From an uncultured Saprospiraceae bacterium (lineage in GTDB: Bacteria; Bacteroidota; Bacteroidia; Chitinophagales; Saprospiraceae): a stretch of 64,000 nt of DNA. Under the pieces are notes generated by a model. The model was given only the letters and a program-made list of their open reading frames with translations. It had not been told where the DNA came from and made no database searches. The DNA is taken from assembly GCA_943788055.1 (NCBI GenBank), contig CALSOU010000002.1, positions 203,767 through 267,766 of the forward strand. The letters are read 5' to 3'. Shown here one piece after another: positions 47,514 through 62,305 of the stretch. Position 1 is the stretch's first letter, and each line of letters starts with the position of its first letter. A program made the position numbers and the translations under genes.

Positions 47514-48380
47514 CTATAATAAATAGAAAACCAAGAATACGAATACCCATACTAAATCGACAAAGTGCCAATACAATCCAATCTTCTCAACCATCTCGTA
47601 ACCATTCTTACGTTCAACGTAAACACCACTAGCAGCATTGAGCATAATTATTATTAGAAAGACAACTCCTGAAAACACGTGGAAACCATGAAATCCAGTA
47701 ATAAAAAAGAAAAGAGCGCCAAAAGCTTTAGGCCCAAATTCCTGATTCATTCTAGTTCCTTCATCGGTACCACTGGTTACTTGATATTCTCTTTGAACCC
47801 AATCACCATTGTGTTTATGAATCAGGTAGCTTTCACCAGCTTCAAATGTCTCTTTTGTAGCACCGGCAGCGTATGCATCACCATTTGCGTCTTCGAGGTA
47901 AACACCACTTTCTACATGTGTACCAAATGGATTGGTAGTGACTGACATGTGCTCATGACCAATCAGATTAGTCCACTCCCAAGCTTGACAACCCAAGAAT
48001 CCTAAACCACCAATAATGGTAAGTATCATCCAAAAAACCACTCCTTTTCTATTTTCTCTGGCTCCTTCTTGTACTGCTCTAACCATAGTAACTGATGATA
48101 CGATCAATAAAAAGGACATAACTGTTACAAAAATTAGTGGCCAACCAGTAATTCCTCCTGGAAATGTCTGAAATACAAAATCGGGAACTGGCCAAGTAGG
48201 CGAACTAATACGTAGTGCCCCATAAGCAATTAGAAAACCTGAAAATGTAAATGCATCTGAAAGAAGAAAATACCACATCATTAATTTTCCGTACGAAGCC
48301 TTAAAAGGTTTTTTACCACCATCCCAAGCATCTCCACTTTGTACTTCAATATCGTGATCTAAAGCTGTATCTGTAGCCAT
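47514..48380 (-). CDS. Cytochrome c oxidase subunit III (long form)
   Basis: 288 residues with the COX3 helices: KLMMWYFLLSDAFTFSGFLI, LIFVTVMSFLLIVSSVTMV, and the diagnostic GFHGFHVFSGVVFLIII and YWHFVDLVWVFVFLVFYLL. Between helices it has a soluble insertion of about 80 residues (GTHVESGVYLEDANGDAYAA to RMNQEFGPKAF) usual for Bacteroidota. Subunit III stabilises the core and oxygen channel. Second of two adjacent cox3 genes; 16 bases after the short form. Confidence 0.93.
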   Translation of the reverse strand: MATDTALDHDIEVQSGDAWDGGKKPFKASYGKLMMWYFLLSDAFTFSGFLIAYGALRISSPTWPVPDFVFQTFPGGITGWPLIFVTVMSFLLIVSSVTMVRAVQEGARENRKGVVFWMILTIIGGLGFLGCQAWEWTNLIGHEHMSVTTNPFGTHVESGVYLEDANGDAYAAGATKETFEAGESYLIHKHNGDWVQREYQVTSGTDEGTRMNQEFGPKAFGALFFFITGFHGFHVFSGVVFLIIIMLNAASGVYVERKNGYEMVEKIGLYWHFVDLVWVFVFLVFYLL

Positions 48381-48396
48381 GTATCGTTGTGTTTAA

Positions 48397-48975
48397 TTAT
48401 CTAGTCAAAAGTAAAAATATATATAAGTATATCCACAAGAATCCTAAAAAGTGCCAAAACTGTAACACCAATTGAAATCTATTCTTGCGAACTTCCGTAA
48501 CTTCAAATTTCAACCCGAATGCATGTATAAGGGCAACAATCAATGTCGTTAAACCTGCTACTACATGTGCAGCATGTACAATATTGATCAAATAAAAGAA
48601 TGACGCAGAAGGATTGATTTTGAAATCAACACCCCACGCGTACAATTGCATCCAACCTTGATATTGAAGAATTAAGAAAGTAACTCCTAGTAAGAATGCT
48701 GTAATCAACATCCCACGGTAAAGTGACTTGTTCTCTTTTGTAAACATGTAATATGATGTTTGCAAACAAATACTACTAACTAAGAGAGTTACAGTACTCC
48801 ACACAAAAATCGGTGGTATAGCAAACTCTAACCAATTTCCCGCAGCATGCCGCACAATATATGCACTTGTAAATGCACCAAACATCATAATAAGACTACC
48901 CATAGATATCCATAATCCAAACTTCTGTGGATTAATTCTACCTGGTCTATATTCATTTGTCATAGCCTGATCCAT
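48397..48975 (-). CDS. Cytochrome c oxidase subunit III (short form)
   Basis: 192 residues with five helices. ISMGSLIMMFGAFTSAYIV, TVTLLVSSICLQTSYYMF, FYLINIVHAAHVVAGLTTLI and FWHFLGFLWIYLYIFLLL are COX3/CyoC-like. Bacteroidota act/cox clusters typically carry two COX3 proteins; this one corresponds to the first. One base after the ctaB stop, in the same operon. Confidence 0.9.
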   Translation of the reverse strand: MDQAMTNEYRPGRINPQKFGLWISMGSLIMMFGAFTSAYIVRHAAGNWLEFAIPPIFVWSTVTLLVSSICLQTSYYMFTKENKSLYRGMLITAFLLGVTFLILQYQGWMQLYAWGVDFKINPSASFFYLINIVHAAHVVAGLTTLIVALIHAFGLKFEVTEVRKNRFQLVLQFWHFLGFLWIYLYIFLLLTR

Positions 48976-48976
48976 C

Positions 48977-49891
48977 TTATATTCCGTTTTGACCGATAAT
49001 AAAAAGAATTAGTACTAGAGGTAAATATGCAAATGAAAAGTACATCAGCTTTTTTGCAGAAACAGTGTCGCCCAACTTATATAGGTTCCAGCCCCGCATA
49101 GCATAAAGTATGTTGATTGCAAGAATCATAAGAGTAGTAAATACGCCCATAGATCCGTAAACAAATGGAATTAGACATATTAGAATTAACGGTAGAGACC
49201 AAATAAAAGCCGATAACCCAATTCTGTTGTCTCTGACTTGATCTTTAACTGGCAAGAGTAGATATCCTGCCAATTTATAATCGTCATAAGACATCCATCC
49301 TATCGCCCAAAAATGAGGTAACTGCCAGAAAAACTGAACTGCAAAAAGAACTAGAGCTAATGCAGTTATTTCTCCTTGAAAAGCTGTTGTGCCAATCAAA
49401 ACAGGTAAAGCTCCTGGTATAGCTCCTATCCATATAGCTATTGGTGAGAACCTCTTGAAAGGTGTATATACAAATGCGTAGGTAACTAGTGCCGTTGTTC
49501 CTAATAAGGCTGAAATAGGATTAAACAATGCTAGCAAAGTGATCCCTACTAAAGCCATCATTCCCGCAAGCAAAACCGCTTTTGAAACCTGCATTCTTCC
49601 GCCTGGAATAGGACGATTTTTGGTTCTAGTCATTAGACCATCGAAATCTTTTTCTAAAACTTGGTTCAGTGCATTTGCACTACCAGTTACTAGAAAACCT
49701 CCTAACGCCAATACTGCTGCAGCATATATGTTAAAGGCTGACTGTGCAACAATTGCATACGCAAGTAGAGAAGACATCACTACAGTTACGTTAAGTCTAA
49801 ACTTAACGAGCAATTTGAAGTCGTCCCAAGCAGAATACTTTTCTGCTTGAGCTCCAGCCTGTATAGCATGTACTTGTGCTTGTTTATTCAT
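48977..49891 (-). CDS. ctaB: Protoheme IX farnesyltransferase (heme O synthase)
   Basis: Adds the farnesyl group to heme B, making heme O, the precursor of heme A for the oxidase. 304 residues with about nine helices. The first prenyl-diphosphate site is NQVLEKDFDGLMTRTKNRP with the NxxxDxxxD arrangement, and the second aspartate-rich site is SYDDYKLAG. The ATG overlaps the cox1 stop by one base. Confidence 0.94.
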   Translation of the reverse strand: MNKQAQVHAIQAGAQAEKYSAWDDFKLLVKFRLNVTVVMSSLLAYAIVAQSAFNIYAAAVLALGGFLVTGSANALNQVLEKDFDGLMTRTKNRPIPGGRMQVSKAVLLAGMMALVGITLLALFNPISALLGTTALVTYAFVYTPFKRFSPIAIWIGAIPGALPVLIGTTAFQGEITALALVLFAVQFFWQLPHFWAIGWMSYDDYKLAGYLLLPVKDQVRDNRIGLSAFIWSLPLILICLIPFVYGSMGVFTTLMILAINILYAMRGWNLYKLGDTVSAKKLMYFSFAYLPLVLILFIIGQNGI

Positions 49892-51729
49892 TAATGCACA
49901 TCCTTTTCACCTTCCTGAGCAGGAACATATTGCGGAATAAAATCATGACCATCTTTACCGTAATCGTAAGCCCATCTATGAACTGTAGGAAGGTTTCCTT
50001 CCCAGTTACCGTGACCCGGCTTAATATCCGTAGTCCATTCCAAAGTAGTTGCTCCCCAAGGATTCTTTGTCTTCATTTTCTTACCATACCAAATACTGTA
50101 GAAAAAATTAATGACAAATAGAATCTGAACAGCGAATACAATGATAGCAGCAATTGTTATGAACTTGTTCATCAAGGCGAAGTCATTGAACGCGTCAAAA
50201 CTATCAAAACTATAATATCTACGAGGAACACCTGCCATACCTATGTAGTGCATAGGCCAAAATATTGCATATGCTCCAACAATTGTAAACCAGAAGTGGA
50301 TTTTTCCTAAAGTTTCATTCATAAATCTCCCATACATTTTTGGGAACCAGTGGTATATACCAGCGAACATACCAAAGAATGCAGCTACACCCATTACAAT
50401 ATGGAAGTGGGCAACTACGAAATATGTATCGTGCATTTGAATATCAATAGCTGAGTTTCCTAAGAATATACCTGTTAACCCTCCAGAGATGAACATTGAT
50501 ACGAAACCTATTGCAAATAGCATTGGAGTATTCAATCTGATATTACCACCATACAACGTCGTGATCCAGTTAAATACTTTCACCGCAGATGGCACAGCAA
50601 TAATCAAGGTAAATACAACAAAGAAATTAGATATCATTGGATTCACTCCAGACATAAACATGTGGTGTGCCCAAACAATAAATGACAAGAATCCAATTGC
50701 AAGTATTGAGTATACCATGGCTTTATAACCGAAAATTGGCTTTCTAGCATGTACTGAAAGCACCTCAGAAACTAGACCCATTGCTGGTAAAATAATTATA
50801 TACACCTCAGGGTGACCCAAGAACCAGAATAGGTGTTGGTATAGAATCGGAGAACCCCCAACATTAGGAAGAGCTTCACCGTTCACAAAAATCTCACTAA
50901 GAAAAAAAGAAGTTCCCAATCCACGATCACACATTAACATAAGGAATCCTGATACTAACACTGGGAAAGATAAGAGACCCAAGATTGCAGTTACAAAAAA
51001 TGCCCAAATTGTTAAAGGCATTCTCCACAAGCTCATTCCTTTCGTTCGAAGGTTCAATACCGTTGTAATGTAGTTTATACCACCCAATAGAACGGAAACC
51101 ACAAAAAGAGTCAAACTTACCAACCACAGAGTCATACCTGCACCAGACCCCTGAGAGGCCTGAGGTAGTGCCGACAACGGTGGATAAGCAGTCCATCCAC
51201 CAGCAAATGGTCCAGTAGAGATAAATAAGCTATAGAACATCACGATTCCTGCCATAAAGAAAAACCAGTAAGATAGCATATTCATGAATGGTGATGCCAT
51301 ATCTCTAGCACCTAGTTGCAATGGAATTAGAAGATTACTAAAGGTTCCCGATAGTCCGGCAGTCAATACAAAGAAAACTAAAATCGTTCCATGCATAGTA
51401 ACCAATGCGTAGTAGAATTCTGGTGCTAAAGTTCCTATACCATTTTCAACTACTATCCACTTACCTAAAAGTGGCTTAATCCATGTCATACTGTCTTCTG
51501 GAAAACCTAATTGCATCCGGAAAACTATTGACATGGCAGCTCCAATAATCGCCCAAATCATACCAGTTATCAAAAACTGCTTAGCAATGATCTTGTGATC
51601 CATGCTAAAGATATAGTGCGAAATAAATCCTGATCGAAACTTATCACCGTGGTGATGATCGTGAAAATGATCATCATATCCCTGTTCTTTGATCAGAACA
51701 TCTTCATTATATTCTAATACTTCTGCCAT
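49891..51729 (-). CDS. ctaD: Cytochrome c oxidase subunit I
   Basis: The catalytic heme-copper subunit, 612 residues. The CuB His and cross-linked Tyr are in WFLGHPEVYIIILP, the CuB His pair is in WAHHMFMSG, and the heme ligands are in HDTYFVVAHFH. The low-spin heme His occurs in TMHGTILVFF. The N-terminus has an unusual His-rich tail (HFHDHHHGDKF) before helix 1 (IAKQFLITGMIWAIIGAAM). Starts two bases after cox2. The core of an aa3-type oxidase. Confidence 0.97.
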   Translation of the reverse strand: MAEVLEYNEDVLIKEQGYDDHFHDHHHGDKFRSGFISHYIFSMDHKIIAKQFLITGMIWAIIGAAMSIVFRMQLGFPEDSMTWIKPLLGKWIVVENGIGTLAPEFYYALVTMHGTILVFFVLTAGLSGTFSNLLIPLQLGARDMASPFMNMLSYWFFFMAGIVMFYSLFISTGPFAGGWTAYPPLSALPQASQGSGAGMTLWLVSLTLFVVSVLLGGINYITTVLNLRTKGMSLWRMPLTIWAFFVTAILGLLSFPVLVSGFLMLMCDRGLGTSFFLSEIFVNGEALPNVGGSPILYQHLFWFLGHPEVYIIILPAMGLVSEVLSVHARKPIFGYKAMVYSILAIGFLSFIVWAHHMFMSGVNPMISNFFVVFTLIIAVPSAVKVFNWITTLYGGNIRLNTPMLFAIGFVSMFISGGLTGIFLGNSAIDIQMHDTYFVVAHFHIVMGVAAFFGMFAGIYHWFPKMYGRFMNETLGKIHFWFTIVGAYAIFWPMHYIGMAGVPRRYYSFDSFDAFNDFALMNKFITIAAIIVFAVQILFVINFFYSIWYGKKMKTKNPWGATTLEWTTDIKPGHGNWEGNLPTVHRWAYDYGKDGHDFIPQYVPAQEGEKDVH

Positions 51730-51731
51730 GA

Positions 51732-53241
51732 TTATATGGTTTGTTTTTTAAAAATTTTGAATTCAATTCTTTTATTCTTCATTCTGCCCTCCTCAGTATC
51801 ATTAGTTTCCAATGGCATTCGATCTCCGTAACCCCTTGATGAAAGGCGTGAAGAACTGACGCCACGGTCAATAAGATAGTTGAGAACTGTACTCGCTCGT
51901 GATTCGGATAATTGCTGATTAACACCAGAATCTCCAACATTGTCCGTGTGCCCATTAAGCTCGATACTAACATCCTTGTATTTAGTTAAGGCTGTCACGA
52001 GATTATTAAGCTCATACTGTGAATTGTTAGTTAGGTTAGCTGAACCTGTTTCAAAATTTATATTTCTGAGCGGTAAGACGATATCATCAGTGTCTGCACT
52101 AGACATTGCATTATCGAATTCCTCAAAGAATTTCTTTTCATTAACTTTTATATCAGACTCCAAGAATTGACCCTTCAATGGATCATTGTCTGTATTTCTG
52201 ATTTGTGACATGTAGTATGAATTCTGTTGCTCTAACCAAGCATTATATTCATCTTCACTCACAATTTTTACGATTTTTCGCATACTATAGTGACCTTTCC
52301 CGCACAACTCAGCACAAGCCAACTCGTAATCAAAAGCCTCCCATTTCTGAAGAGATTCAGGATCCTCAGGATCAGATAGTCCTTGCCAATTAGCGTTGTC
52401 ACGTAAGCGAGCCCTGAAGTCTTCTGTTGTCACAGTTGGTGTGAATACGAAGTATGAAGGTAGTCCCGGAACTGCATCCATCTTTACTCTAAAGTGCGGT
52501 AGGTAGAAATTGTGCAGGACGTCTTTTGCAGTAATTCTCACTCTTACTTTCCTTCCAACTGGAAGATAAATTTGATCCGCGATAAAATCATCATGATTTT
52601 GTGGATCTTCCCAATTTTGTCCTAGAGGATTGATACCAAGTTGAATTAGTGTATAATCCTTCTCTCCCAATCTATTATCAGGACCTGGATATCTAATATC
52701 CCAAGCAAACTGATAACCAGTTGCCTCAATTTCAATTACTTCTTCATCTATTCCTACGTCAGCCATAACTTCATTCCACACTACCAATCCTTTTACAACT
52801 AAGAAAGTCATTACTAGCGCAGGAATACCTGTCCATACGTATTCTAGAGTATTCGTCATGAGAGAAAAATAGCGCTTTTCGACCTTTACGTTTTCTATAC
52901 TTATAAGTATACCAAAACAATAAAATGTGAGTAATCACAAAAACAATACCCGTGAAGATCAGCGTGGTATTGAATACGCTATCTAGTAAAACTCCATGAG
53001 CGGATGCAGCAGTAAGAGGACCATATCCAAGCATAACATCTTTATAGTACACTGCTGAAATGACAGTAGCTGATAAAAAGACAATCATGAATATAAGTAA
53101 CCAGAATGCAGTGCTATTGTTGGCTTGCTGCTCAACAATTTCCTCTCCTCGTATTCGTCCTGACAGTTCCGTCACTTTGGATATCTGAATAACGATAACT
53201 ACGAGTAGAAATAAAATCAGTAATATTATTAGTGCAGTCAT
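51732..53241 (-). CDS. ctaC: Cytochrome c oxidase subunit II fused to a C-terminal OmpA peptidoglycan-binding domain
   Basis: Accepts electrons from cytochrome c at the CuA centre. One extra base (C52854) breaks the frame after FFSHD; removing it gives NTLEYVWTGIP and a 502-residue protein (1509 bp). The N-terminal part has an extra helix (residues 1-20) and two COX2 helices. CuA ligands are His243 in VLHNFYLP and Cys309, Glu311, Cys313, His317 and Met320 in CAELCGKGHYSM. After a 65-residue linker, residues about 385-500 are an OmpA domain: NINFETGSANL, LNGHTDNVGD (Asp433), LSESRASTVLNYL (Arg448) and RGYGDRMP. Both residues that bind diaminopimelate in OmpA are present. The whole CuA-linker-OmpA part is a single uninterrupted frame. 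Confidence 0.9.
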
Positions 53242-53254
53242 TTTTAATTTTTAA

Positions 53255-54665
53255 TTATGATCGTAATGCGATATAATTTAGTTCTTTAGTTATTATACGT
53301 GGTGATGTAAAACTCTCTTCCAAAAATGGATCCTTTGCAGGTGTAAGTGGAGCTGATCCCAATGTTCGATAAAATATCAATAAGAATAAACTCAAAAATC
53401 CAATGAACGTCCCTATTTCCAAAAAATCCTGGTAAATTATAACCCATCAAAAATTCTGATGCTCCATGTGCAGCGTCTGCTACAGATTCAGCGTGCCCGC
53501 CAGCAGCATGTGCAACTTCGCTTCCGTGCTCTGCAGCCGAATGAGCTGCTTCTCCGGCATGCTCACCATCGTGACCAGCGCCATGATCTGAATGTCCCAT
53601 AACCTCATGAGCTGTATGAATTACTCCTGGCTTGATCATCAAGAAATAATCCCACCAGTGACCAAAGAAAACTGCTCCTGAAGTAAGTAACAATGTCCCG
53701 TATTTTCTCTTGTTATCGTTACGCATTAAAACAAAGAAAGGAAGTAAAAAGTTTATCAAAATATTACCATAAAACAAAATTCCATAGTCATCTTTTCTCA
53801 GCTTGTAATAACCAGTTTCCTCTCCAACATTTCCATACCAAATAAGCATATATTGTGAGAACCATAGATAAGTCCAAAAGATAGAAAATGCGAAAAGTAA
53901 CTTTCCTAAATCGTGTAAGTGTTCGTTTGAAACTTCAGCGAAATATCCTTTTCCTTTCATGTAAGAGATGATCATGATAGTTAAGGCTATCATTGCTACA
54001 AACCAACTTGCACCTGCATACCATCCAAAAAGCGTACTATACCAATGCGCGTCGACGCTCATTACCCAAAAGCCATATAACAGCAGCACTTGTAAAACCA
54101 GCAATTGGTAAGAATATTGCTGCATACGTTCTTAGTCTTCTGTGATGCTTGAATCCACTATCGCCACCTTCAGTGTCTTCACTCAATGAAATATCGCGCA
54201 TTCTCTTGGCAAAAAAGTACCAAGCCAAAACAATTATCCCTCCAAAAACAACATACATATTAGCATTTAGAAATCCAGACTTGCCTTCGAGAAGTTCGTC
54301 TGTGGCTACGCTTTCAGCATCAGCCCAGTGGTACAAATGGTGCCAGTGGAAGTAAACTCCTAGTCCAATGATTAACATAAGGACGAAACCTACTATCAAA
54401 AACTGCCCCATAGACTCCCAAAACTCTCTTAAATACCGTGTACCAACCTGCCCAGGCAGTTATTGACGCCGACAGAAAGAATACCGCCATTAGTGCGATA
54501 CCAGTAAAAAATACCGAGTTATGTAAAAGGTTTGACCAAAATCGAGAATGTAATTCATTATCATTACCCCCCAAAATACGTTAGTATCAAACTCAATACG
54601 CCCACAGCAATACCTACAAACAGTAATGTTGTTTGCCTAGCCGGCATAGTATATTGATTATTCAT
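53255..54665 (-). CDS. actF: Alternative Complex III subunit ActF, frame broken four times
   Basis: An integral-membrane, quinone-side subunit related to NrfD/PsrC. Joined across breaks it starts MNNQYTMPARQTTLLFVG, then YFGGNDNELHSRFWSN, FFTGIALMAVFFLSASI, RVLESMGQFLIVGF, VIWLWVMSVDAHWYSTLFGWY, YMLIWYGN and LPGFLEIGTFIGFL, to ALRS. Extra bases are inferred at C54567-54572, C54417-54419, A54068-54071 and A53421-53426; removing them gives exactly 1407 bp, 468 residues. A His/Ala-rich segment (HSDHGAGHDGEHAGEAAH and following, 53464-53610) is inserted before the final helices. It is the last act gene, 13 bases before cox2. Confidence 0.85.
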
Positions 54666-54707: not shown

Positions 54708-55592
54708 TTAGTGTTGACTTCCATGATCTTCAGAGTGGCCATCTTCATAATCTCCTTGCTCTGAATGCTCAACTTCCAAGTGCTCAGCATGTTCTACATC
54801 CATTGTACTAGCCATTTTCTTGACCATAGAACCTGCAATAGCCCACTCATTTAAAGTATTTTCAGTTTCATTGTATGCCAACTTCTTTTCTTTAGCTTGA
54901 AGACCTCTGATATAGTGGATAACTTGCCATCTCTCTTCATAAGACAGCTTGTCTTTATATGCACCCATCATATTCTTTCCGTACATTATAGCGTGATAGT
55001 ATTGTCCGTTGCTCATTTCAACATATTGATCAAGCAATAAATTTGCAGGCTGTGCAGGGTATTTACCACCATCTTCGCGAACGAGATATCCCGCTCCATC
55101 TCCTTTTTCGCCATGACAAATTCCACAAAAGATATTATAGAGTTCTTTTGCTTCTTTCATTTCAGCATCAGTGATTGGAAAAGGATTCTGCATTATATCA
55201 GCAGCCGCTTTCATTCTATCATCTTCAGTGTCTTCATAAGGATAAGGTACGCTTCCGTTCATAGGAACAGAGATACTTGAATTTGTTAAGCTACCGTTTA
55301 AACTTTTTGCTACATCAGATGAAGTAGCTTGTACAAGACCAGCATAGCCTCGAGGTACCGTTCCTTTCACTGGCTCTTTTGGCTTCGCATACTTATAGTA
55401 TTCATCTTCACCACCCCATGTATTATTATAATAATAGAGGTAATGGTTAGACTCGTAAGCTACCGAGTGAGCCATATCTGGCATAAACTCACTTCCTGGC
55501 ACGTTATCATGAGGTCTTTGACATGAACTAATCACGAGCCAAACAAAGAGGCTCATAGCGATCAGGATATTGTTATAATTAATTTTCATCAA
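54708..55592 (-). CDS. actE: Alternative Complex III subunit ActE, monoheme cytochrome c lipoprotein
   Basis: 294 residues with lipobox VWLVISSC. The cytochrome c domain has one heme site, ELYNIFCGICHGEKGDGAGY (CGICH), with a likely axial Met in YGKNMMGAYKDKL, and the ending WQVIHYIRGLQ. The N-terminal region DNVPGSEFMPDMAHSVAYE is typical of ActE. It probably passes electrons from ActA towards the oxidase. The C-terminus is His- and acid-rich (HAEHLEVEHSEQ ... GHSEDHGSQH). In order between actD and actF. Confidence 0.9.
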   Translation of the reverse strand: MMKINYNNILIAMSLFVWLVISSCQRPHDNVPGSEFMPDMAHSVAYESNHYLYYYNNTWGGEDEYYKYAKPKEPVKGTVPRGYAGLVQATSSDVAKSLNGSLTNSSISVPMNGSVPYPYEDTEDDRMKAAADIMQNPFPITDAEMKEAKELYNIFCGICHGEKGDGAGYLVREDGGKYPAQPANLLLDQYVEMSNGQYYHAIMYGKNMMGAYKDKLSYEERWQVIHYIRGLQAKEKKLAYNETENTLNEWAIAGSMVKKMASTMDVEHAEHLEVEHSEQGDYEDGHSEDHGSQH

Positions 55593-55610: not shown

Positions 55611-56144
55611 TTATATAATTTTAGAGTTAACTTCATCAGCACCTGTCTCTGTAAAGAAACTCTCAGCAACTGAAGCATCAACTTCTGACTTATCAAAAGC
55701 TATACAAAATTTATCATCAGTAATTCTATTATCAAGAATTGGTAACTTAATCCCTGGTCCCATACCATTAACAATGTAAAATGTTACAACCATACCGATT
55801 GCCGCAAACAATACTGTTAATTCAAATGTGATTGGAATGAAAGCCGGTACCGACCAGTAGGGTTTTCCACCAAAGATTATTGGCCAATCCTTAGTGAAAA
55901 TCCAACTCATCCCCAGGAAAGGCTGTAAGTGTACCTATTGCTCCGTAGACGAATCCTCCCATGTGCAGCCTTGATTCTGCTAATCCCAAGAAGCGGATCT
56001 AAGACCGTGCACAGGAAATGGTGTAATACACTTCCATGATCTCGATAGTGCTGATGCTATTAGCCTCCTTGACGGCTTTCAATCAGAGTCTGTCTCATCA
56101 TTGTCATATAGACCGTAGATTACGTCTTTATCTTGATGTGCCAT
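55611..56144 (-). CDS. actD: Alternative Complex III subunit ActD (DUF3341), N-terminal half broken
   Basis: A small membrane subunit of ACIII. The C-terminal half is intact: MSWIFTKDWPIIFGGKPYW, SVPAFIPITFELTVLFAAIG, and FYIVNGMGPGIKLPILDNRI with the usual ending. Upstream, MAHQDKDVIYGLYDNDE (start 56144), KAVKEANSISTIEIMEVY, PFPVHGL, DPLLG and LAESRLHMGGFVYGAIG are read in changing frames, showing about five indels in 55911-56085. The order of motifs is exactly that of DUF3341. I consider it a real gene with a poor consensus. Confidence 0.78.
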
Positions 56145-56179: not shown

Positions 56180-57631
56180 CTAGTGTGATTCGGTTATCTG
56201 CTTCTACAGCTGTACATCCGTGGGACTGCTGATGTTGATAGCATCGGGTCCGACAGTACTGGTCTACCGGATGATCTTCAGAATAGCTCTTTACCTCTGC
56301 CACTGCCACTACCGGTGCGACCCTACACGAAGATTAAGATACAGTGCAAAGAATAGTCCCATCGTCCCAGTACGAAGATGCCGATCTCGACCCAAGTTGG
56401 TGACATAATACGACTCCAGCTTGATGGCAAGTAGTCCCTTGCTAAGTGTAGTAGCGATGATCACGAATCGCTCAAACCACATTCCTATGTTCACAACTAT
56501 TGACATGAAGAATGTGAGCCACACATATCACGTCTTCCAACTTTTCGTCTCCAGAAGAACTGAGGCGATACCACATTACAGAACATCATACCAAAATATG
56601 ACCACCAATACGGTCCCAGCTGCTCTATTGAAAAACGCAAATTGCTCATATACATATCCCGAATACCAGGCGATAAACAGCTCTGTGAGGTATGCTACGC
56701 CCACGATTGTACCCGTTACCAATATTACTTTATTCATCGACTCAACGTGAGCTCGATAGTAATATAATCTTCTAGTCCTAAGTATCTTTCGGGTGATCAG
56801 CATCAGTGTCAGTACCATTGCGAACCCAGAGAAGATCGCCCCTGCCACAAAGTATGGAGGAAAAATCGTAGTATGCCATCCTGGAATAACTGATGTCGCG
56901 AAATCAAAACTTACAATCGTGTGAACTGAAAGTACAAGTGGCGTTGCAAGACCTGCAAGTACCAATGAAATCGACTCCCATCTCTGCCAGTGTTTCGCAG
57001 AACCGTTCCATCCAAAAGAAAGGAAATGGTAAATCTTCTTTCTTATCCCTCTTGCTCTATCTCTTACCGTTGCAAAATCTGGAACTAAACCTGTGTACCA
57101 AAATAAAAGTGAAACCGTGAAATAGGTACTAATCGCAAATAAATCCCATAACAGTGGAGAATTAAAATTAGGCCAAAGTGGGCCTCTAGTGTTTGGATAA
57201 GGGAAGAAGTAGAAAACAACCCATGCTCTACCCACGTGTATACCTGGAAAAAGTGCCGCACATAATACAGCGAATATTGTCATTGCCTCCGCAGCTCGGT
57301 TAACACCCGTTCTCCATTTTTGACGGAAAAGTAGCAATATCGCGGAAATCAATGTTCCGGCGTGACCGATACCAATCCACCACACGAAGTTGGTGATATC
57401 CCAACCCCAACCAATTGTCCTATTCAAGTTCCAAGTTCCAATTCCGAACCAGATTGTCCACGCAATACAGAACACTCCGAAAGTAGCTAATGCTGCAGCT
57501 ACTGAAAAAGCTATGACCCACATTAAATTAGGTGCTTTCTCCGTAGGAGACACTAGATCCTCCGTGATCTGGTGGTAGGTTTTATGCCCAGTTATTAAGG
57601 GCTCTCTTATTGCTGATACAGGTGCACTCAT
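56180..57631 (-). CDS. actC: Alternative Complex III subunit ActC (NrfD-like), C-terminal part broken
   Basis: A menaquinol-site membrane subunit with about ten helices. The first 340 residues are intact: [78 protein letters not shown], and ending [12 protein letters not shown]. There a GGG (C56615-56617 on the plus strand) has one base too many; the next frame reads [17 protein letters not shown] and [19 protein letters not shown]. Two or more further frame changes follow around 56370-56440 ([10 protein letters not shown], then [11 protein letters not shown]). The 3' end is therefore approximate. Confidence 0.85.
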
Positions 57632-57655: not shown

Positions 57656-60600
57656 TTAAGCGTCAAGTTTTTCATTACGATTATTCACTCGCATAGAGTA
57701 TTGAACTGAAGATCTAACGTTCACTTCTTCCAGAACAATAAAATTCAGTGGATTCTCAAGTTTATGGCTCAAATTACCATTCTTGTTATTCATATCACCA
57801 AATGTAATTGCTCCAGTAGGACAAGCTGTTTGACAAGCTGTCTTAACGTCGCTATCCCTAAGCATACGCTCTTCCTTTTTCGCCGTCAACTTTCCTTCTT
57901 GAATTCTCTGAACGCAAAAACTACACTTTTCAATCACCCCTCTTGAACGAACTGTAACATCTGGATTTAATACCATTCTTGTCAAGTTATCCGCTCCAAA
58001 AGGAATCTCTTCGTTATTTATCGTTGGTTGGTTACCAGGGAAGATATCCGCTGTTGTATAATCCAACCAGTTAAATCTTCTTACTTTATAAGGACAGTTA
58101 TTTGCACAATATCTAGTACCAACACATCTGTTGTAGGTCATTTGATTAAGTCCTTCAGAAGAGTGGTTTGTAGCATTTACTGGACAAACATTCTCGCATG
58201 GAGCGTTATCACAGTGCTGACACATCATCGGCTGATAAACCGTATTTGGATTCTCTAACTTTCCATAGTAGTATCTATCGATTCTCAACCATGTCATCTC
58301 GTGGTGTCTACTAACTTCTCTTTTACCTACAACAGGAACATTATTCTCGGCCATACATGCAACTGTACATGCTGCACACCCAGTACAAGAATTCAAATCT
58401 ACATGCATTCCCCAATGATGTCCATTCTTGTACATCTTATCATGACCACCATAGATTTGCTGATCATTCAAATGTTGAGCATGTGCTCTTTTATCATTCA
58501 AGTGCTCCACACTATCTTTCAAACCTTCAAGGCTTGAATAGTACATAACAGATCTATCAGTTAAAGCTCCTTGGAAACCCTGACTTCCAAGACCATAGCT
58601 AAATGACACTAAAGCAGCCTCATCAGCATTAATCATCTCACCAGTTGCTTCATCAGTATCTTTCACCCCGTAAGTATGGTGATACTGAACACTTGCAAAT
58701 TCTTTATCTTCTCCAACTTTTGCAGAAATTTCTACATTTGGAACAGAATAAGTTCTATACCCTAGCTTGTTAACAGAAACTGACTTATTCATGTCAACTC
58801 CCACGCCTTTTGCACAAAGCCCTCCAACCTCTCGGCCATAACCTAATGCTAAAGCAGCAGTTCCAGGTGCTTGACCAAATTGCTGTACAACGGGAACGGT
58901 AATTGTTTCTCCGTTGACTGTTAGGTCTACTAAGTCACCATCTTTAAGATCATTCATAGAGATCATAGTGCTAACACCATCGAAATCCACCGGTATAGCA
59001 AGATGATTCCCCCACACAGTTCGTGTAATTGGATCCGGCATTTCCATCAACCATGGATTATTGGTATAGGCACCATTTCCAAGATGTCCTTCATATATCT
59101 TTAATTCGATTCCGTCTCCTGATACTGTTTTTGTCACTTGTCCAGCAGCAGATGCCGTATCTCCAGAGAAACTCACACTACCTGCTATTTTACCAGATTT
59201 GAAAATACCATCATGAAGTGCTGACTCCCAAAATCTTTGGAATCCACCAAACAAAGACTGAAGTTCAAAAACATCCTCTTTCCAACCTTGCTGCACAAAA
59301 TTCATATACGAATCACCAAAATCTACACCAGCCCAAGCAAGCAAGGTTTCACCCGCTTGTCTTGTATCAAAGATGGTATTGATCGTAGGCTGCATTAAAG
59401 TATACATACCTTTTACCGGCTGAGCATCTCCCCAAGATTCTAGGTAATGACTTACAGCTGCTACCATATCACTTTGATCAGTAGTCTCGTCATTAGAGTA
59501 TGAAATGCTCAATTTGTTCTTCACTTTCTCTAGACCAGATGCAAATTTACCATTTGATTTAAAATCGTAAGCTGGATTTACTTGCATAAAAATAACAGTA
59601 TCAACACTGCCACTATTCATTTCATTGACAAGTGACGAGATCTCCTTATCGCTTCCTTGACGTGTCATCAAAGCTTCTGAAAAATCAACTGTATTTCCTA
59701 AGTTACCTAAATAGTCATTGACTGCATTTACGAGTACTTGCTCCCCTTTATTATTAGTGCCAGAAACTACTATAGACTTACCTCTTGCAGCCTTCAACTC
59801 TTGGGCTGCTGCTTGTAAAGCAGTTTTTGCTTCCTGGTTCAAGCTCGCTGCACTTAAGCTACTTCCCGTCACCATATTGTAAAGCGTAACGATTGCAGCA
59901 CCTTGTTCGGATGGCTTGATTAGAATTCTGTTATCTGCATTTGACCCAGTCAAAGACATATGAGACTCAACCTGATAAAGTCGGCTCATTTTAGCTCCAT
60001 CTACTTTGTCTATTTTTCTGTTGTTAATGAAGTCAACAGAGTATTTTGTACTATCACCCCAACTGCCTAGAAAGTCAGCATCGAAGCTAACAACAACTTC
60101 TGCCTTATCAAATTTATAAGCAGGCATCGCACGCATACCAAAGTTTTCTTCATTGGCATCCAAAAGTCCAGCATAAGAAACACTATCATATTGAATATGC
60201 TGTGTTGACGGATACTTAGTTTTGAAAGCTTCAATCGCTCTAGTTGTAGATGGACTGTAGATTGAAGAGGTAACAAGTTTGATCGACGTTGAACTCGCCA
60301 ATACACTCATTGCTTTTTCATCTAAATCAGCCCAACTAGTCTCAGCTCTATCGGCATCTTTACCAATTTGAGGTGATCTAAATCGAGCAGTGTCATATAA
60401 ATTCAACACAGAAGCTTGTGCTCTTGCAGATGTTCCACCGTAACCCACAAGATCATTACCTTCGATCTTAATAGGACGTCCCTCTCTTGTTTTAACAAGA
60501 ACAGAAGCGTAGTCACCACCTTCCACAAATGTTGTAGCGTAGTATGATGCTACTCCTGGCACGATAGTGTCAGGTTTCACAACGTATGGAATTGCTCTCT

Positions 60601-60820
60601 TTACAGGAATGTCACACCCTGCTGCAATAGTCGCTGCACCAACACCGAAACCAAGCATCTTTAAAAAATCTCTACGAGTACCGCCTAATTGCTCAACAGC
60701 TTCAGCATTTCCTAGTGCTTCTGGCATAGAAGCAAACTCTTGCTGAGAAATTTCTATAAAGCCAGGGTCGTTAGTAAGATCCTTTTCTCCTATCCAAACA
60801 CCTTGATCTTTTCCTTTCAT
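57656..60820 (-). CDS. actB: Alternative Complex III subunit ActB (molybdopterin-like plus iron-sulfur protein)
   Basis: The large periplasmic subunit, 1054 residues, intact. It has a Tat-type signal with RRDFLKMLGFGVGAATIAAG. Residues about 80-760 are a molybdopterin-oxidoreductase-like domain that carries no Mo cofactor in known ActB. Residues about 805-1020 hold the four-cluster ferredoxin domain: CTGCAACTVACMAENN, CQHCDNAPCENVCP, CVGTRYCANNCPYKVRRF and CSFCVQRIQ with a following CQTACPTGAI. In known ACIII these make three 4Fe-4S clusters and one 3Fe-4S cluster. It starts 60 bases after the actA stop. Confidence 0.95.
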   Translation of the reverse strand: MKGKDQGVWIGEKDLTNDPGFIEISQQEFASMPEALGNAEAVEQLGGTRRDFLKMLGFGVGAATIAAGCDIPVKRAIPYVVKPDTIVPGVASYYATTFVEGGDYASVLVKTREGRPIKIEGNDLVGYGGTSARAQASVLNLYDTARFRSPQIGKDADRAETSWADLDEKAMSVLASSTSIKLVTSSIYSPSTTRAIEAFKTKYPSTQHIQYDSVSYAGLLDANEENFGMRAMPAYKFDKAEVVVSFDADFLGSWGDSTKYSVDFINNRKIDKVDGAKMSRLYQVESHMSLTGSNADNRILIKPSEQGAAIVTLYNMVTGSSLSAASLNQEAKTALQAAAQELKAARGKSIVVSGTNNKGEQVLVNAVNDYLGNLGNTVDFSEALMTRQGSDKEISSLVNEMNSGSVDTVIFMQVNPAYDFKSNGKFASGLEKVKNKLSISYSNDETTDQSDMVAAVSHYLESWGDAQPVKGMYTLMQPTINTIFDTRQAGETLLAWAGVDFGDSYMNFVQQGWKEDVFELQSLFGGFQRFWESALHDGIFKSGKIAGSVSFSGDTASAAGQVTKTVSGDGIELKIYEGHLGNGAYTNNPWLMEMPDPITRTVWGNHLAIPVDFDGVSTMISMNDLKDGDLVDLTVNGETITVPVVQQFGQAPGTAALALGYGREVGGLCAKGVGVDMNKSVSVNKLGYRTYSVPNVEISAKVGEDKEFASVQYHHTYGVKDTDEATGEMINADEAALVSFSYGLGSQGFQGALTDRSVMYYSSLEGLKDSVEHLNDKRAHAQHLNDQQIYGGHDKMYKNGHHWGMHVDLNSCTGCAACTVACMAENNVPVVGKREVSRHHEMTWLRIDRYYYGKLENPNTVYQPMMCQHCDNAPCENVCPVNATNHSSEGLNQMTYNRCVGTRYCANNCPYKVRRFNWLDYTTADIFPGNQPTINNEEIPFGADNLTRMVLNPDVTVRSRGVIEKCSFCVQRIQEGKLTAKKEERMLRDSDVKTACQTACPTGAITFGDMNNKNGNLSHKLENPLNFIVLEEVNVRSSVQYSMRVNNRNEKLDA

Positions 60821-60879: not shown

Positions 60880-62305
60880 CTAGTAGTGACATTTCTGACA
60901 TTCAAGACCTCCAATATCTTCTACAGTCACTTTAGTACGATCACCATCTTTCATCTCTTTGTGATAGTCTTCGTAAGCACTGTAATATGTATCATTAAAA
61001 TTAACTTCTGTTTGTCTGTGGCAGTTGATACACCATCCCATTGATAACGGTGACATCTGCTGTACAACTTCCATTTCTTGAACTTGACCGTGGCATGTTT
61101 GACATTCTACTTGTCCAACAGTTACGTGCTGAGCGTGATTGAAATAAACATGATCTGGCAGATTATGTATTCTAGTCCATTCTATTGGACCAGGTATCTC
61201 TGTTTTTTACTTCATTAGTTAAACTAGCTTTCAAAGCTTCAAATTGCTTATCTGCAATTCGTCGTAGCTGCTCATCTGTTGCATTCTCTAACTCTTCGTC
61301 GTTTTCAGCATTTGCCTTTTTGATCCAATCCTTATACAACATAGATATTGAATCTTCAGGCATGTTTTCATAGTTCTCAATATACTTTCCTTTGATTGGG
61401 TCATATCCTACAGAAGCATAGATTTTTGTAATCTCTGCAGTTCCATACTCAGAGCCATAATTAATGGCCTTATGGCAATTCATACAAGTGTTAGTTGCAG
61501 GAATAACAGAGTGCTTCGATCTTCTTGCTCCGTCATGGCAATATTGACATTCGATTTTATTTAATCCAGCATGAGTTTCGTGAGAAAACTTAATAGGCTG
61601 CTCGGGTGCATAACCTTGTTGACGACCTAGAGAAACTGCATTATTAACTGTTGTATATCCTCCAAGTAGCACAAACGCAAAAAGTACGAATCCAATCAAC
61701 CCCTTACTCGTAAGAATATCCAGAATTGATTTTCGTTCGACAATCGCATCAGGGTTCTCTTTCTTGGTAGCTATAACATTTAGGTTACCAATTACTCTTG
61801 CCAAAACTAAAGCAAGAATTGCAAGAAGTCCAAGCAATCCAACGTACAACCAAGGGCTAGTTGCTTCTTCTTCCTCTTCATCTTCGGCTACTACAACTAC
61901 ACCAGCTTTCACACCATAAGTACCATTGGCTACACCATTGATGTATTCTAAAAGTGATCCTATATCGTCATCTGTTAGGTTAGGATATGCAGTCATGATG
62001 ACACCATTGTAAGTCTCCCACAATTCTGTAGCTCGTGGATGACCAGATGCGATCAAAGCTTGTGAATTTCTAATCCATGCATATAAATCAGATTCTGGAT
62101 AATCAGCCCAACGCTCCTGAACTCCCGCGAGTGCTGGACCAGTCATATTCTTTTGCATGCCCTTATCGTGGCAAGATGCACAATAATTACGGAACAAGGT
62201 TTTTCCTGCGTCAGCAGAAACCTGTGCCATCGAAGTGGTTCCATATGCCATGAGAAATACTAAGAGTAGTGATCTCCCGAATGAAGCTAAATTTCTTATT
62301 ATCAT
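60880..62305 (-). CDS. actA: Alternative Complex III subunit ActA, multiheme cytochrome c, frame broken once
   Basis: A membrane-anchored multiheme electron-transfer subunit, first gene of the operon. After a signal (to TSMAQ) comes a monoheme cytochrome c domain with CASCHDKG, then an acidic linker, membrane helices, and a pentaheme part with CQYCH, CMNCH, CQTCH, CINCH and CQKCH, giving six CXXCH in all. The frame breaks at T61203-61208; with one base fewer, EVKTEIPGPIEWTRIHNLPD is restored and the protein has 474 residues. Fusion of a cytochrome c domain to ActA is usual in Bacteroidota. Passes electrons to ActE or directly to cytochrome c. Confidence 0.9.

Follow-up and report, generated by a model that had tools for sequence, protein, structure and literature searches.

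An OmpA-type domain on subunit II of a Saprospiraceae cytochrome oxidase and the possible tethering of an ACIII-oxidase complex to the cell wall

Introduction

In most depictions, respiratory complexes diffuse within the membrane. In caa3 oxidases, subunit II has a cytochrome c domain at its C terminus. Physical association of alternative complex III (ACIII) with an oxidase is known in Flavobacterium johnsoniae and R. marinus (PMC8552683). In F. johnsoniae, ActE is described as a monohaem cytochrome c that is anchored in the membrane beside the oxidase; it is reported not to be required for electron transfer to aa3, but to benefit growth (PMC8552683). In OmpA of A. baumannii, Asp271 and Arg286 have been reported to bind diaminopimelate (PMC5974059).

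In this study, the subunit II gene (coxB) of an uncultured Saprospiraceae bacterium was analysed in the window, which is the whole stretch of 64,000 nucleotides of DNA. Its product carries an OmpA-type domain behind the CuA domain.

The coxB gene and its operon

The features of coxB were as follows.
52771..53241, minus strand: N-terminal membrane part (156 aa, separate frame), 100% match to residues 1-129 of the relative P0002
52855..52886, minus strand: overlap of the two coxB frames, site of the frame break
51732..52859, minus strand: main frame, 375 aa, with the last membrane helix, CuA domain, linker and OmpA domain
52461..52730, minus strand: PF00116 COX2 match
52512..52514, minus strand: His116 of the 375-aa frame, the CuA ligand within VLHNF
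52281..52316, minus strand: CuA motif CAELCGKGHYSM
52056..52280, minus strand: linker, 75 residues
51774..52055, minus strand: OmpA peptidoglycan-binding-type domain (PF00691)
51942..51953, minus strand: GHTD, containing Asp306 in frame numbering (Asp433 of P0002)
51894..51911, minus strand: LSESRA, containing Arg321 in frame numbering (Arg448 of P0002)

The original prediction had placed the CuA domain, linker and OmpA domain in a single uninterrupted frame within 51732-53241. The fusion was found to be real in 51732-52859 (minus), a single stop-free frame in which PF00116 (residues 44-133, E 5e-11, 42.9 bits against a cut-off of 22) and PF00691 (residues 269-362, E 4e-22, 78.8 bits against 27.2) both exceeded the Pfam cut-offs. 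The longer range consists of two frames, with the N-terminal membrane part separate. The predicted motifs VLHNF, CAELCGKGHYSM, GHTD and LSESRA were all present in the window frame. It also contained the CuA ligands His, Cys, Glu, Cys, His, and Met, among which the His of VLHNF is counted, as in COX2 proteins; the six ligand positions were kept in 120/120 listed homologues.

In the assembly, the coxB frame is broken between the membrane helices. Both parts lie in one unbroken frame in P0002, a relative of the window CoxB with 97% identity, 502 aa and 17 member sequences. Residues 1-129 of P0002 correspond to 53241-52855 in frame -2, and residues 119-502 to 52886-51735 in frame -3. The break in coxB is probably a sequence error, given that P0002 is intact and that actA and actF are also interrupted. 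The best CoxB match of P0002 was TIGR02866, the NCBIfam CoxB equivalog, yet the score of 121.1 bits against a cut-off of 147.7 leaves P0002 below equivalog status under that model. None of the best 25 of the 43 NCBIfam matches of P0002 reached the cut-off.

The other genes of the operon were as follows.
47514..49891, minus strand: two coxC-like genes and ctaB, downstream in the operon
49891..51729, minus strand: coxA, with its ATG right after the coxB stop
53286..54574, minus strand: actF, in four tblastn pieces
54708..55592, minus strand: actE, monohaem cytochrome c lipoprotein-like, without an OmpA domain
55611..55910, minus strand: actD (PF11821); the ActD of a relative matches on to 56144
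56576..57631, minus strand: actC; the ActC of a relative matches on to 56336
57656..60820, minus strand: actB
60883..62305, minus strand: actA, in two tblastn pieces, with an N-terminal haem c domain

The genes of the predicted ACIII partner were present: actF to actA lie upstream of coxB, in the same gene order as in relatives, beside the genes for subunit I, subunit III and haem A/O synthase. The 97%-complete assembly contained one PF00115 match, which is coxA, and one PF00116 match, giving a single detected haem-copper oxidase with the window CoxB as its CuA subunit. The broken actA and actF point to sequence errors rather than decay. With actF spread over four frames and actA over two, other genes of the window should be read with caution.

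The OmpA domain and its linker

In the window CoxB, the Asp of GHTD and the Arg of LSESRA are 15 residues apart, the same spacing as between Asp271 and Arg286 of A. baumannii OmpA (PMC5974059). The GHTD Asp corresponds to the diaminopimelate-contacting Asp of OmpA. The predicted Asp/Arg pair was found in the window sequence and in 120/120 listed CoxB homologues, a set whose ranking by similarity to the full query favours kept domains. A fairer sample is given by the 101 family genomes with the CoxB fusion, and the pair was kept in all 101 (100 by pattern and G222 by eye, as SHTD...LSESRA). A natural pocket-loss variant was observed in G244 and G344, two genomes of one genus, where the OmpA region of CoxB persists and GHTD and LSxxRA are lost (loci L244 and L245).

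Counted between the CuA Met and the beginning of the Pfam OmpA match, the linker has 75 residues, not 65 as first predicted. The distance from the CuA Met to the OmpA Asp had a median of 113 residues (111-133, s.d. 2.0, n=120). The linker was the least conserved part of CoxB-OmpA among the listed homologues.

The AlphaFold model of P0002 had a mean pLDDT of 83, and its core matched COX2. The OmpA fold, on whose presence the original prediction had been made to depend, superimposed on 5wtp_C at 0.7 Å over 103 columns with 39% identity. MotB/PomB, TagL-type and Pal proteins were among the PDB fold matches and the NCBIfam matches below cut-off.

The dN/dS of the OmpA domain was calculated on 13 close pairs, with dS saturated in nine and the ratio measurable in four. 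The values were 0.033, 0.059, and 0.144 in three pairs with an intact domain and 0.172 in the degenerate pair. The OmpA domain of CoxB thus appears to be under purifying selection where this is measurable.

Both caa3 subunit II and the window CoxB have an extra C-terminal domain after CuA. This domain is a cytochrome c in caa3, whereas in the window CoxB it is an OmpA domain without haem. The predicted lack of a cytochrome c domain at this site was borne out, with CXXCH in 0/120 listed CoxB-OmpA homologues, and the identification of the window CoxB as a caa3-type subunit was rejected.

Distribution of the CoxB fusion

A protein search with CoxB gave 4020 proteins at E up to 0.001, and PF00691 and PF00116 were both found on 120/120 of those listed. 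Where database names were given, these proteins were called 'cytochrome c oxidase subunit 2' or 'OmpA family protein' (Portibacter, Saprospiraceae, Lewinellaceae). The cultured Portibacter lacus is among the organisms with the fusion.

CoxB-OmpA was found in 101/150 sampled Saprospiraceae genomes, including the window genome (two frames) and G284 (on two contigs). The OmpA region of CoxB was degenerate in 2/150 (G244, G344), 12/150 had a bare CoxB with ActE-OmpA, and 23/150 had neither fusion. The remaining genomes were G224 (bare CoxB, ActE not seen), G325 (cut by a contig end) and 10 without a CoxB-core match. The family tree and its accompanying table label G284, G244, G344, and G325 as bare. 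One genus contained both a fused genome (G142) and a bare one (G328). This search of relatives, proposed with the original prediction, ruled out a mis-join of coxB and ompA, since intact fusions exist in other family genomes.

Elsewhere in the order, the CoxB fusion was found in 4/130 genomes (G363; G367, G378, G411). Asp and Arg were kept in all four, with AHTD replacing GHTD in three. Among the matches listed, a match across both domains was found in 0/196 genomes of the class sample and 0/192 of the phylum sample outside the family; a fused protein should score above the matches listed. In these samples, CoxB-OmpA is rare outside Saprospiraceae.

Other CoxB variants were also observed. An N-terminal haem c domain was present on CoxB in 7/28 class-level loci (L006, L012, L013, L016, L019, L020, L024), resembling that of the window ActA with 29–42% identity (E 1e-20 to 1e-25). 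Four loci with such a CoxB (L275-L278) were read more widely, with no act gene matches within the 18 kb taken. This haem domain seems to be mobile and to pass between ActA and CoxB. The bare CoxB of L095 and L106-L110 had low-complexity or coiled C-terminal tails of at least 100 residues without CXXCH.

The OmpA domain on ActE

Confinement of the OmpA domain to CoxB was rejected, because other lineages carry it on ActE. In 7/20 loci with a bare CoxB, the operon also encodes an ActE that ends in an OmpA domain. The family-wide search found ActE-OmpA in 12 genomes, all with a bare CoxB. It was found in 0/100 CoxB-OmpA family genomes in which ActE was seen, G317 (fused, ActE not seen) being left out. 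In 17 genomes, the ActE frames with room for an overlooked OmpA domain were read and contained none, and no family genome had both fusions together. The exclusivity of the two placements (0/100 vs 12/35) gave a Fisher p of 2e-8, with genomes counted as independent though related. The kinship-aware test, which counted G284 as fused and omitted G325, G244, G344, and G224, had too few informative pairs.

Among the relatives of ActE-OmpA, 52/120 listed proteins carried the OmpA domain, and GxTD and LSxxRA were present in 52/52. The spacing from the presumed haem Met to the Asp was 121 residues (97-174, s.d. 14.6, n=52). The ActE-OmpA model had a mean pLDDT of 78, with 85–98 in the OmpA blocks from residue 291 on. 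Its matches included 3td5, an OmpA domain with m-DAP pentapeptide, at 43% identity.

A similar arrangement was read directly in G182 and G152, genomes of another family. Their act operon encodes ActE with a thrombospondin-3 (TSP3)-like spacer and an OmpA domain beside a bare CoxB. Named relatives of this protein were from Crocinitomix and Putridiphycobacter. Among the listed matches of the Crocinitomicaceae-type ActE, 27/120 carried OmpA; 21 of these fit the full pattern and the other six keep Asp and Arg by eye. The TSP3 spacer was present on some of them.

In the tree of OmpA domains, the ActE domains of G202 and G311 fell among CoxB domains (98/86), and those of the other family grouped with the TSP3-OmpA protein of the window genome (95/95). 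This tree was built on 115 columns and is poorly resolved, with unsettled bootstrap. The AU test did not reject one common origin of ActE-OmpA, whether or not the other family was included (p 0.44 and 0.14). The TSP3 spacer and the 95/95 grouping suggest that the Crocinitomicaceae-type ActE-OmpA is probably a separate gain, with one origin also compatible with the AU test (p 0.14). The 45–53% identity between CoxB and ActE domains had been considered as proof of a hop of the OmpA domain within the operon. The idea was abandoned, because comparable identity (45–59%) is seen between unrelated OmpA domains of the class and because the tree is poorly resolved.

Discussion

The results suggested that the OmpA domain of CoxB likely clamps peptidoglycan (rough probability 0.6), which would tether the oxidase and the ACIII predicted to be bound to it to the cell wall. 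The C terminus should be periplasmic in CoxB as well as in ActE. The OmpA domain would accordingly lie in the periplasm on both hosts, after the CuA domain of CoxB and after the haem domain of ActE. The Asp/Arg pocket would take the meso-diaminopimelate of the stem peptide, which should be available since dapF is present in the window genome. A linker of some 75 residues could span the distance from the inner-membrane complex to the sacculus. One subunit would suffice as the attachment point, and the alternation between CoxB and ActE can be understood because such a tether needs only one subunit of the complex. Which of the two bears the clamp of the predicted complex most likely matters little. 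The cell might gain a fixed site of respiration, a defined spacing of membrane and wall, or shear resistance. The tether would be dispensable in the 23 family genomes, since neither fusion is present there.

The pocket and the linkers bear on a different role, in which the OmpA domain is glue within the supercomplex, docking on ACIII or the oxidase and steadying their contact without wall binding. Docking would not demand an invariant diaminopimelate pocket, yet its Asp and Arg are invariant in 120/120 listed CoxB-OmpA and 52/52 ActE-OmpA proteins. The near-constant linker length of CoxB would suit docking, whereas the ActE linkers spread widely (97-174 residues) and the linker is the least conserved part. 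Alternation between two subunits expected at the ACIII-oxidase interface and retention of a domain without a pocket in G244 and G344 also speak for glue. On balance this role is unlikely, though it stands best among the alternatives.

The domain could also be a promiscuous passenger, a mobile OmpA domain fused by chance and tolerated, with peptidoglycan binding inconsequential. Its retention in 101/150 family genomes and the purifying selection where measurable argue against this, although the window genome has 14 OmpA domains above cut-off and the losses are patchy, with 23 bare genomes and the G142/G328 pair in one genus. A mere passenger would also sit poorly with a second subunit of the same operon bearing the domain in lineages with a bare CoxB, and with the ten other OmpA proteins of the genome that were scanned with Pfam, where a respiratory partner domain was found in none. 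The passenger explanation is considered rather improbable.

A peptidoglycan-binding domain might instead position the oxidase near the outer membrane or a partner there, such as gliding or type IX secretion sites. CoxB and ActE have no outer-membrane element and the complex is in the inner membrane, so that this is very improbable even though some further OmpA proteins of the genome are combined with partners of outer-membrane type (PD40, TSP3 with a beta barrel, SprB). An assembly or annotation artefact fusing coxB to an ompA gene, for which the interrupted frames of coxB, actA, and actF in the window assembly could be cited, is negligible in view of single-frame intact fusions in about 100 other family genomes and in 120/120 listed proteins.

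The wall tether remains the preferred reading. In its widest form, it would mean wall-pinned respirasomes in Saprospiraceae and in the Crocinitomicaceae type, with the OmpA clamp gained more than once, CoxB and ActE interchangeable as bearers, and ACIII:aa3 immobile at a set distance from the sacculus. This wider picture is tentative, at somewhat less than even odds. If true, a wall clamp on a terminal oxidase makes the respiratory complex a fixed part of the envelope. Removal of a single domain would then be a direct genetic test of whether fixing or spacing respiration matters. In some lineages, ActE may double as an anchor point, which can be compared with the dispensable yet growth-beneficial ActE of F. 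johnsoniae (PMC8552683).

The original prediction knew of no report of this architecture. This held for the literature covered: a full-text search of open-licence PMC papers found no report of it. It did not hold for databases, where records of such proteins exist. A known domain on a known subunit appears here in an arrangement of which no description was found in that search.

Comparison with known systems

The ACIII:aa3 supercomplex of F. johnsoniae (PMC8552683) shares the act-cox operon with the window, where the complex is predicted from the genes. The available portions of that account mention no OmpA domain; 'OmpA' there refers to a promoter only (PMC8552683). In MotB/PomB stators, TagL-type T6SS anchors and Pal, an OmpA-type domain likewise holds a membrane machine to peptidoglycan, but these are motor, secretion or outer-membrane proteins and not respiratory enzymes.

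The OmpA-like domain of Gloeobacter PsaB is regarded as a wall binder. In Gloeobacter violaceus PsaB (PDB 7f4v chain aB), an OmpA-like stretch was found at residues 752-864 (E 2e-13). Residues 3-727 are modelled in the structure, and peptidoglycan is unmentioned in the available part of its description (PMC9000952). PsaB differs from CoxB-OmpA in belonging to photosystem I, a photosynthetic complex of a cyanobacterium, and in the domain being placed on one subunit. Like CoxB-OmpA, it bears an OmpA-like domain on a core subunit of an inner-membrane electron-transfer complex, and it is the nearest precedent found.
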